A stretch of DNA of 64,000 nucleotides from Sialis fuliginosa (taxonomy: Eukaryota; Arthropoda; Insecta; Megaloptera; Sialidae). Location of the stretch: assembly GCA_961205875.1 (NCBI GenBank), contig OY540809.1, positions 22,332,267-22,396,266 of the forward strand, written 5' to 3'. Under the pieces are notes generated by a model. It searched no databases, was not told the DNA's origin, and saw only the letters and a list, made by a program, of their open reading frames with translations. Positions 52,736 to 61,625 of the stretch are shown in pieces (position 1 is the first letter of the stretch; each line of letters opens with the position of its first letter). The position numbers and the translations under genes are program-made.

Positions 52736-53501
52736 AATCTCAGGATGGTGTAACCGCTCACTCAATTCCCTCGATATTAAACTATTAAATTGTCTCATAT
52801 TAATGCAATTTGCAATAAAATTAATTTACTTAATTGCAAATTGAAGTTTTGACTTGTAAATTGTCACTTCTGTAGAAAAATAAATAAACAAATTGTAATT
52901 ACGAAATATTAATAAGTTTTCAATATAAATCAATTAATAAAATCATTAAATATTAAGAAACGAATCTAGAACATACTTTGATGAAATAATAATATGAAAC
53001 AAATAAATTGATCAAATTTAAATAAAGCTGATGTTATTTAAAACAATTAAAGGGTGCACCTACTTATTGTATAACACGTTCAGTAAGAAACAAAATTTTA
53101 TATAGTTTTTATTAGCGCGGATATTAAGGCAATTTAATTGTATACATTACGTTCACTCTATGTCAAATATGACCTATTTTTCACAGTAATTACTGTTTAA
53201 AAACTTTAGGTTTTGGTGACATATGTGTGAAACCTGTCATTACAACATAATTTTTATTTTACATTATTCAAGAAATAACTGCACAGTCTAACTAATGCAT
53301 TTAAGCCCCTATCTCTTAGACTGTGATAATTTCGTATGTGAATTCAATAATTAATACCATTTCTTTTACGTATTTCACAGTCTAAGTAAATTCTGCACTG
53401 GTCTTCAAGGTGGATTGGTATCAGATTGTGACGCACAGGTAAATGCTCTATTAATTTGTTATACTTAACTTCCGTATGTATTTTTTTCTACAAGTGTCGA
53501 C

Positions 53502-53539
53502 TATATAAAGGTCCTGTGGACTAGTGGAAGACATCAGTT
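53502..53539 (+). promoter_or_regulatory. Core promoter of gene E
   Basis: TATATAAAG is at 53502-53510 and a TCAGTT initiator at 53534-53539, with its A at 53536. The leader to the ATG at 53578 is about 42 bases. The promoter is identical by eye to that of gene F. Confidence 0.8.
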
Positions 53540-53577
53540 GATCAGTACCTTGTTGGTTGCTGCAATTGTGAATTAAA

Positions 53578-54992
53578 ATGGCATTCAAGGTAAGATTGTG
53601 AATGTGACATTTTTAAAAGTGTTCTGATCGGAAAAATATTAAAAATGCGCGAAAAACATTTTTCAAAAATACAGAATGTTAATTTCCATCATCCAAAAAT
53701 ACTAGTGATATTCAAAAATTAAAAAAAGTTTAATTAACCTCTTACCGTATGGATTTTTTTATCACTGCGAAATACATATATGATATAAAGCATTGTAAGA
53801 TATATAGAGGAAAAAAATTTCTAAACTTTTTCTTAATATTTTATTAACACAATAAATTATGACATATTTGGCACTATATGCATTAAACACAAAAAAATAC
53901 ATATTTCATAAAATTCAATAATCAGGAAACAAGATTTTTGAAATTAACAAGTGGTTCCATATATGGTACCGTATGCGGTTAAAATTAGCAGGATTATGTT
54001 TTTAGTTTATTTTAGAACACAAATTTATCAATTTAATTTTTTATGTTTGGGGGAAATAATAAAAAAATAACGGAAAACATCAACCAGAACTCATTTGCTA
54101 AATAATCGATTTTTATTTTACAGTTTGTACTTAAAATTTAACATCAAAATCGTATCTATGCTAAATATTTTATTTTATTTTACAGTTTGTTCTTTTCGCT
54201 GCCTGCGTGGCGGTCGCCAGCGCTTCAGTCATCCCAGCTCCAGTAGCTTACGCTACCCATGCTGCCCCAGTAGCTTATGCTGCTCACCCAGCTCCAGTAG
54301 CTTATGCTGCCGCCACCCCAGTTGCTTATGCTAAAGTAGACGAATACGATCCCAACCCACAATACAGCTACTCATACGGTGTCGAAGATGCTCTTACCGG
54401 AGACTCCAAGAGCCAACACGAAACCCGCAGTGGAGATGTTGTCCAAGGACAATACAGTTTGGATGAGCCCGATGGCACACGTCGTACCGTCGACTATACC
54501 GCTGATCCAATCAACGGATTCAACGCCGTTGTCCGTAAAGACCCACAAGTTAAAGCTTTCCACACCGTCGCCGCTGCCCCAGCTCCATTTATCGCTGAAG
54601 CCGGTCCAGCTGTTATTGATGCCCGTATAGCTGCTCCAGTCGCTTACACTGCTACTCCAGCTGTAGCTCACTACGCCGCTGCCCCAGCTCCAGTTATCGC
54701 TGAAGCCGCTCCAATCGCTTACGCCGCTGCTCCAGCTGTAACTCACTACGCCGCTGCCCCAGCTTCAGTATCATCTTATTCCACTCAAACTGTTTCTCAC
54801 ACACCAGTGACACAATACGCCGCTGCTCCAGTTGCTCACTACGCCGCTGCTCCAGTCGCTTATGCTGCTGCTCCAGCTATCAGAACTGTTGCTCACGTTG
54901 CTCCATCTACCTACTCCGCATGGAACTATGGAACCACAAACTACGGTTACGCCGCTCCAGCACTTGCCTACAGCGCCAAATATTTCCATTAA
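53578..54992 (+). CDS. RR-2 cuticular protein (gene E), left palindrome arm
   Basis: Chitin-binding cuticle structural protein. Exon 1 is 53578-53589 (MAFK, donor GTAAGA); exon 2 is 54186-54992 after TTTTACAG. The intron is 596 bases, phase 0. The product is 272 residues: signal peptide about 1-17 (ASA before the cut, with a Cys at 11), a [12 protein letters not shown] N-terminal part, RR-2 domain about 58-124 ([44 protein letters not shown]), then a long Ala/Pro/Tyr/His tail with [12 protein letters not shown] repeats and a less repetitive end ([25 protein letters not shown]). It forms a subfamily distinct from [13 protein letters not shown] in the domain and a longer tail. The intron holds a decoy acceptor at 54121-54123 whose use would give a stop after a few codons. 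Gene F encodes the identical protein. Confidence 0.95.
54099..54196 (+). repeat. Duplicated splice-acceptor segment in gene E intron
   Basis: Two copies of CTAAATA...TTTTATTTTACAGTTTGT, one ending at 54128 and one at 54190. The second is the real acceptor. The first would give MAFKFVLKI and a stop. The same pair is present in gene F. Confidence 0.7.
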
Positions 54993-55007
54993 ACAAATAT
55001 AATCGAA

Positions 55008-55017
55008 AATAAATAAA
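55008..55017 (+). terminator. Polyadenylation signals of gene E
   Basis: Two overlapping AATAAA hexamers (55008-55013 and 55012-55017) about 16-25 bases after the stop. Confidence 0.7.
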
Positions 55018-59828: not shown

Positions 59829-59895
59829 TTTAATTCACAATTGCAGCAACCAACAAGGTACTGATCAACTGATGTCTTCCACTAGTCCACAGGAC

Positions 59896-59904
59896 CTTTA
59901 TATA
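59896..59904 (-). promoter_or_regulatory. TATA box of gene F
   Basis: TATATAAAG on the minus strand, in a promoter identical to that of gene E, including the TCAGTT initiator. Confidence 0.8.
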
Positions 59905-60751
59905 GTCGACACTTGTAGAAAAAAATACATACGGAAGTTAAGTATAACAAATTAATAGAGCATTTACCTGTGCGTCACAATCTGATACCAATCCACCTTG
60001 AAGACCAGTGCAGAATTTACTTAGACTGTGAAATACGTAAAAGAAATGGTATTAATTATTGAATTCACATACGAAATTATCACAGTCTAAGAGATAGGGG
60101 CTTAAATACATTAGTTAGACTGTGCAGTTATTTATTGAATAATGTAAAATAAAAATTATGTTGTAATGACAGGTTTCATACATATGTCACCAAAAGGCAT
60201 CGATTAGTATTCAATTTATATATTTCATTTATATCTAAAATAGGTCATATTTGACATAGAGGGAACGTAATGTATAAAATTAAATTGCCTTAATATCCGC
60301 GCTAATAAAAACAAATACATAATTCAATTAAAATTAATTTTAGAAAATTACTACTGAACTTGTTACACAACAAGTAGGTGCACCCTTTAATTGTTTTGAA
60401 TAACATCAGCTTTATTTAAATTTGATCAATTTATTTGTTTCATTTTAATATTTCATCTTTATGCTACATTTTTAATTATATTATACAAAATAAGATATTT
60501 TATTAAATATATTTTATACATTTAGTAGATAATCTTTATTATCTAAGAATGCCAATATTCTTAGTTTGAGAATCACTGCTCTAGAATATATTTAAAAGTA
60601 TGTTCTAGTTTCGTTTCTTAATATTTAATGATTTTATTAATTGATTTATATTGAAAACTTATTAATATTTCGAAATTACAATTTGTTTATTTTTTTACAA
60701 AAGTGACAGTTTACAAGTCAAGTAAATTAATTTTATTGTAAATTGCATTAA

Positions 60752-61574
60752 TAGTCCAGTAAAGGAAGCATTTTGACAGGAAATTAAGAGGGCAAGCAAT
60801 TTTATGATTGATTCTTATAGATTTTGAACCGGAGAATTCGAAAAAAATAACCCGGACTGGCGAAAAGTGGTGCAACACCCTTAAAAATAGGGTTTAAGGG
60901 TGAAAACCCTATTTCAAACCGTTTTTTCAATTTATCATAAAATCTGAAGCGATGATGGTATATTTTTATTGTTGATATATGTTCAGGACACTTAGACGAA
61001 TCGATTGTGACCACATATACTAAATTTGGTCAAAAATTACCTCTTCCAAAGGGCTTAAAAGACGTAAAAATGCACATACCCTTAAACATTAGCGATTTTT
61101 ATTGGTTAAACGATTAAAAATTTTTTAAATTATGGTTGGTCATTATTCTTTGGAACTTCAGGAACAATTTGAGCCTAGTTACGAGTCATTTGGATGATTT
61201 TAACAAAAGTTATTAATTTGTAAACTATTTTCCCAAAAAGATGCATTTTTAAGTTATTTAAGCCCTCTATAAAAGGTAATTTTTGGTCAAATTAAGTATG
61301 TGTGGTCACAATCGATTCGCCTGAGTATCCTGAACATATATTATTGATAAAAATATACCATCGTCGCTTTAGATTTTGTGATAAATTGAAAAAACGGTCG
61401 GAAATGGGGTTTTCACCCTTAAACCCCATTTTTAAGGGTGTTGCACCACTTTTCGCTTGTCCGGGTTATTTTTTTCGAATTCTCCGGTTCAAAATCTATA
61501 AGAATCAATCATAAAATTGCTTGCCCCCTAAATTTCCCTTTTCCTCACTTTTCACTGCTTCCTTGACTGGGCTA
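60752..61574. mobile_element. Foldback element inserted in the right palindrome arm
   Basis: Ends TAGTCCAGTAAAGGAAGC and its near complement GCTTCCTTGACTGGGCTA, with inverted arms of about 320 bases, flanked by TAA on both sides (60749-60751 and 61575-61577). The left palindrome arm shows the empty site with a single TAA. The TAA duplication fits PIF/Harbinger-type insertion (family by inference). Confidence 0.8.
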
Positions 61575-61625
61575 TAATATAAGACAATTTATAGTTTAAT
61601 ATTGCGGGGAATGAGCCTTTTAAAA

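Follow-up and report, generated by a model that had tools for sequence, protein, structure and literature searches.

Interlocus gene conversion as the probable source of an identity mosaic between two mirror-image cuticle genes of Sialis fuliginosa

We analysed a 64,000-nucleotide stretch of the Sialis fuliginosa genome (GCA_961205875.1, contig OY540809.1, here C1), referred to below as the window. It corresponds to C1:22332267-22396266 in a 392-Mb, 20-contig assembly in which C1 measures 47 Mb, and it holds clustered cuticle genes that belong to the Chitin_bind_4 family. Two of these, E (52849-55623, + strand) and F (57782-60721, - strand), are mirror-image copies encoding the same 272-residue cuticle protein. 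Their arms are a mosaic of difference-free tracts and diverged blocks, and interlocus (ectopic) gene conversion between old duplicates very probably produced it. Positions are those of the window unless a contig is named.

Identity mosaic between the two arms

The blastn search aligned 52980-55623 with 60457-57782 at 97.5% identity, which makes E and F near-identical arms of a palindrome, and 52849-52979 with 60721-60595 at 93.9%. A difference list and a 50-base identity profile showed no differences over 53299-53628 (tract 1, 0/330) and none over 53907-55623 (tract 2, 0/1717). The intron middle between them, 53629-53906, carried 8 substitutions and 2 insertions or deletions (indels) in 277 columns (2.9%). 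The outer flank (52849-53297) differed more than the tracts, with 38/445 substitutions (8.5%) and 6 gap events. At the inner end, E-F identity stopped at a 32-bp insertion in E, beyond which a repeat at the mirror position in both arms was 88.8% identical (about 11% diverged); for this repeat we used the blastn value over 215 bp, as the MAFFT count of 42/239 overruns the homologous part. The 272-codon coding sequences of E and F showed no difference.

The whole comparison gave 55 difference events in 2770 compared columns. When these 55 events were shuffled uniformly, 0 of 20000 shuffles reached a clean stretch of 1718. With two further copies of the gene (G and H, described below) included, the longest run of sites concordant between E and F covered 196 of the 473 variable sites over 52849-55300 (p about 1e-4, the lower limit set by 10000 shuffles, none of which reached 196 sites).

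An earlier sequence-only reading of this DNA had described the identical and diverged stretches, an intron-middle difference of about 3%, more divergent outer flanks and identical 272-residue products, and had proposed a 50-base identity profile of the arms. All four were recovered, the limits of the stretches nearly to the base, and the profile was patchy, not even. The arm extent it had given (52750-61625) was too wide: the alignable arms stop near 52849 and 60721, and 60754-61574 is an insertion on the F side, not arm sequence. Nor is there support for the claim that identity is concentrated on the transcription unit, for a diverged block lies inside the unit and tract 2 reaches about 630 bp downstream of the stop. 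It extends about 490 bp past the AATAAA at 55131; further AATAAA words at 55541-55565 make the end of the transcript uncertain. Judged from its course along the sequence, the main tract is not gene-shaped: it starts within the intron, continues about 630 bp beyond the stop and ends at the 32-bp insertion beside a repeat. Its limits seem to be set by heterology (the insertion and the repeat) and not by the gene.

E and F, with their neighbours, form a small array of R&R-type Chitin_bind_4 cuticle protein genes. The genome search returned at least 105 Chitin_bind_4 matches, 11 of them within C1:22.28-22.43 Mb, and PF00379 (Chitin_bind_4 / R&R domain) scored 63.7 bits in both E and F against a cut-off of 25. 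The two genes may belong to the RR-2 subclass. Their structure was deduced from the letters of the genome alone: in E, a coding part of exon 1 of 4 codons (MAFK), a single intron, and exon 2 from 54186 to a stop at 54990-54992. A single intron after the first signal-peptide codons, stated for most CPR genes (PMC2793513), was found in E and F. Tandem repeats of 24, 27 and 75 bp are present inside the coding exon.

Constraint controls from two further copies

Copies G and H lie just past the right edge of the window, both oriented as F (5' parts at C1:22397580-22398282 and C1:22402837-22403182, respectively). Blocks of 92.5%, 90.7% and 85.1% identity align upstream of both F and G, so these two genes look like a tandem unit. 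G differed from both E and F at 6/807 positions of exon 2 (0.7%) and 1/308 of the adjoining 3' flank (0.3%), and its divergence was 7-8% over the intron and 6.1-7.4% over the outer flank (6-15% for the flanks overall). The divergence of H from E was 7% for exon 2, 14% for the promoter block and 34% for the 3' flank.

These copies allowed us to weigh purifying selection, by which constraint on exon, splice and promoter sequence would keep E and F alike without any conversion. The proteins are indeed constrained, with amino-acid changes between E and H rarer than silent ones (Ka 0.040 for amino-acid-changing sites, Ks 0.207 for silent sites), and the promoter block is near-invariant among E, F and G. 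However, none of the 210 silent sites of exon 2 has changed between E and F; Ks is 0.019 for E-G and 0.207 for E-H. The 631 bp beyond the stop are also identical, although their alignable half is 34% diverged from H: 54993-55300 showed 0/308 differences between E and F, 1/308 to G and 34% to H, and 55301-55623 showed 0/323 between E and F, with no useful alignment to G or H. The intron provided a control within a single element. Between E and F, substitutions numbered 8/277 in its middle and 0/279 in its end (Fisher's exact test, p=0.0036; 10 versus 0 with indels, p=0.0009), whereas between E and G they numbered 20/275 (7.3%) and 13/157 (8.3%), respectively (p=0.71). Since both halves are equally diverged from G, the intron end is not the more conserved one. 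Scaling by E-G gave an expectation of 8 E-F substitutions in 53907-55300, with P(0)=3e-4. The identity is thus patchy beyond constraint by both the intron-half control and the four-copy permutation. The identity of tract 2 is not due to constraint, and we consider selection without conversion a highly improbable account of the locus.

The same controls bear on a single recent inverted duplication, after which the intron middle and the flanks would have evolved faster through mutation hot spots or relaxed constraint. The A- and T-rich runs of intron and flanks could mutate faster, as this explanation needs, but the intron halves that are equally far from G are not equally far between E and F. 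Moreover, a 3' flank that is 34% diverged from H where the two can be aligned shows full E-F identity over about 630 bp, followed by an abrupt drop to 88.8% in the mirror-placed repeat. We regard this explanation as improbable.

An assembly artefact, in which consensus or polishing equalised E and F or one arm arose by false duplication or from an alternative haplotype, is improbable to nearly the same degree, though slightly less so. The assembly may contain a false duplication elsewhere: contig C8 carries a direct 56,044-bp repeat (C8:13684803-13740846 and 13745705-13801748) whose copies are offset by exactly 60,902 bp and show 4 mismatches. The E and F arms, on the other side, have opposite orientation and 55 difference events in their alignable part, their outer flanks and inserts are not the same, and each has intron changes of its own. 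The entire structure spans less than 8 kb, and the third and fourth copies (G and H) continue the array. Homogenisation of the tracts alone by the assembly procedure is unlikely.

Inclusion of H also gave concordant runs between G and each arm, of 79/466 sites for E-G and 79/491 for F-G, both at 54962-55235 (p 2e-4 and 1e-4, respectively).

Several points weigh against gene conversion as the explanation or limit its reach. The whole case is the sequence of one assembly. The contrast between the intron halves comprises 8-10 events only. The expectation for E-F scaled by H, 33.9, is too high, as it used raw counts over unequal columns; per-site rates give about 16. With sites from E, F and G only, the E-G and F-G runs shrink to 5 and 6 sites and fall in the outer flank (p about 0.009), so that those runs alone cannot place conversion with G. 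Tract 1 is near-invariant in G too (1/330), although H differs by 14%, and promoter constraint may contribute to its identity. Beyond the palindrome, Ks is 0.23-0.33 in five of the six pairings of genes A-D, without recent homogenisation. The five further pairings presented below were chosen for equal or similar domain scores, which makes them a biased sample, and their exact coding limits are unannotated.

Order of events and orientation of the partners

The repeats adjoining E, F and G were 88-92% identical (8-12% diverged), and together with outer flanks diverged by 6-8.5% they indicate that the duplications are old and predate the identical tracts. The intron middle (2.9%) is younger than the flanks, and the difference-free tracts are the youngest. 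Polarised by G, the gap-free E-F substitutions of the intron middle comprised 3 found in E alone, 4 in F alone and 1 three-way difference. Private changes on both arms point to new mutations gathered after an earlier homogenisation; they also rule out import of these differences from G. We infer that exchange took place in two or more rounds, or in a single round with a discontinuous tract.

Under gene conversion, old duplications would have produced the mirror-image pair E/F and the tandem pair F/G, and the gene bodies would since have been overwritten time and again by interlocus conversion. In its most recent event or events, E and F would have become equal over both tracts, while the intron middle would have escaped and retained the differences gathered since the earlier homogenisation. 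The process would presumably be homology-directed repair, in which a broken copy is mended from another that serves as template, and its benefit may be that several copies of a structural gene stay equal. There was no clear sign of GC-biased conversion in base composition: the non-coding parts of tract 2 had G+C contents of 19.5, 23.7 and 24.5%, compared with 23.4% for the outer flank. Tract 1, which contains the promoter and exon 1, had 33.9%.

Conversion from arm to arm had been proposed as the cause of the mosaic. For E and F this proposal is strongly supported, with G and H controlling for constraint, but its emphasis on the inverted arms as a special feature is not. G stands in direct orientation to F and yet differs from E and F by only 0.7% in exon 2 and 0.3% in the adjoining 3' flank, within far more diverged outer flanks. 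E/F, an inverted pair, was the most identical pair compared within the array, which favours the original proposal. F/G (direct) and E/G (inverted), however, share the same Ks of 0.019, and C8 pairs were 94.5-95.1% identical in direct and inverted orientation alike. A special role of inverted orientation was therefore not upheld, on comparisons that comprise few pairs and are weak either way.

Homogenisation extends beyond the palindrome: G is included, and five other pairings of the family at four sites look similar. These were C/D in the window, one pairing on C11, one on C5 and two on C8, of which one of the five is direct. Near the domain exon all five had 0-7 differences per 100 bp, and their flanks could not be aligned. 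The C/D pair (21098-21851 and 39414-40168) is inverted, with about 18 kb between its members, 97.8% identity over the match, a Ks of 0.025 and unalignable flanks; it is probably a second converted pair. A broader suggestion, which we offer tentatively and consider possible but doubtful, is that conversion is a standing genome-wide equaliser of clustered cuticle genes, acting in gene-sized islands bounded by diverged repeats or insertions, with E/F as an active hot spot bounded by the 32-bp insertion and the intron block.

Each copy of the large C8 block described above contains four Chitin_bind_4 matches. The block is either a very recent tandem duplication or an assembly duplication.

Known systems and neighbouring features

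The E/F locus is a clear further example of two known phenomena, conversion of cuticle genes and conversion of palindromic pairs. In Drosophila, interlocus conversion is documented for the CPR cuticle genes Cpr67Fa1/Fa2 and Ccp84Aa/Ab (PMC2793513). As at E/F, these are neighbouring paralogues of the PF00379 / R&R family homogenised by interlocus conversion, and the concerted 84A pairs share with E and F the presence of coding repeats, which are tied to conversion hot spots in the 84A genes but not in 67F (PMC2793513). The homogenisation of Ccp84Aa/Ab is centred on the consensus domain, whereas the longest E/F tract reaches from the intron end to about 630 bp beyond the stop; neither 'palindrom' nor 'inverted' appears in the main text of that paper (PMC2793513). 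In Anopheles gambiae, three neighbouring CPR genes are at least 98% identical in coding sequence and have different untranslated regions and introns (PMC2259329, citing Dotson et al.), and concerted evolution has been suggested for the larger CPR sequence clusters of Anopheles (PMC2259329). In E and F, unlike that trio, identity extends to the promoter region, to a portion of the intron and to the 3' flank.

Among palindromic genes, the Drosophila pairs Hsp70Aa/Ab and Hsp70Ba/Bb are tightly linked on Muller element E (3R) and undergo ongoing ectopic conversion (PMC3924832). They resemble E/F as mirror-image insect genes in tight linkage and belong to a different gene family; their case is supported by species comparison and shared silent polymorphism (PMC3924832), that of E/F by one assembly. 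The same review argues that mirror orientation may minimise change in copy number (PMC3924832). The palindromic Amylase pairs of Drosophila are likewise mirror-image paralogues in concerted evolution (PMC3924832). In the melanogaster group only coding sequence shows the pattern, in contrast to E/F, where it extends to a portion of the intron and to the 3' flank; in D. kikkawai, Amy3 and Amy4 are homogeneous in coding and non-coding sequence, through either conversion or duplication (PMC3924832).

The sequence-only reading had drawn a parallel with sex-chromosome palindromes, which serves as an analogy only, the palindromic Hsp70 and Amy pairs of Drosophila being closer. The arms of human sex-chromosome palindromes are much longer than those of E and F. 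Human Y and X palindromes resemble E/F in arm-to-arm conversion within inverted repeats, and differ in having arms that are more than 99% identical (PMC3723533, PMC8981503). A further contrast is that the non-coding G+C content of tract 2 about equals that of the outer flank. Palindromes have also been reported in a springtail genome (PMC5490193). Among the open-licence literature matches listed, no title or abstract opening named a palindromic cuticle gene pair with conversion.

The locus offers recent conversion resolved to the base with natural controls, namely two extra copies, a split intron and mirror-placed repeats that date the duplication as older. It should be useful in insect work on the length of conversion tracts, on the effects of heterology and on direct versus inverted partners. 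Cuticle-gene trees built from coding sequence can mislead on the ages of duplications.

Table 1. Coordinates of the E and F arms and of the spacer between them (positions in the window)
Feature	Position	Strand	Remarks
E outer (5') flank	52849..53298	+	homologous to F 60108-60721; 8.5% substitutions plus indels
E identical tract 1	53299..53628	+	promoter region (TATA 53502), exon 1 (ATG 53578), intron start; 330 bp, 0 differences vs F
E exon 1 coding part (MAFK)	53578..53589	+	
E intron middle, not homogenised	53629..53906	+	8 substitutions, 2 indels vs F
E identical tract 2	53907..55623	+	intron end, exon 2, ~630 bp beyond stop; 1717 bp, 0 differences vs F
E exon 2 incl. stop	54186..54992	+	Chitin_bind_4 (PF00379) domain
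32-bp insertion in E	55624..55655	+	placement within a few bases; E-F identity stops here
Spacer	55656..57781	.	mirror-placed repeat pieces and dispersed repeat 56615-56945
F identical tract 2	57782..59498	-	
F exon 2 incl. stop	58413..59219	-	Chitin_bind_4; coding sequence same as E
F intron middle, diverged block	59499..59777	-	
F identical tract 1	59778..60107	-	promoter region, exon 1, intron start
F outer flank	60108..60721	-	includes 137-bp segment 60458-60594

Much of the spacer resembles interspersed repeats. By blastn, its mirror-placed pieces pair 55659-55872 with 57565-57778 (88.8%, 215 columns) and 56086-56568 with 57095-57566 (92.1%). The repeat at 56615-56945, near the axis of the palindrome, has many dispersed relatives, the best at about 78-85% among the 40 of 6639 first-look candidates that were scored. 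Relatives stand back to back in opposite orientation at several places, and one lies in the left flank, at 51738-52034.

The 137-bp segment of the F outer flank is common to F and G and missing from the E flank near 52979. The insertion at 60754-61574 is absent at the corresponding site beside G and has 296-bp inverted arms (90%). With its inverted ends and a short target duplication seen by eye, it is a fold-back element resembling a miniature inverted-repeat transposable element (MITE). Arrays of the telomere repeat TTAGG were present at three of the five contig ends inspected (L034, L035 and L037), and the other two start with N.

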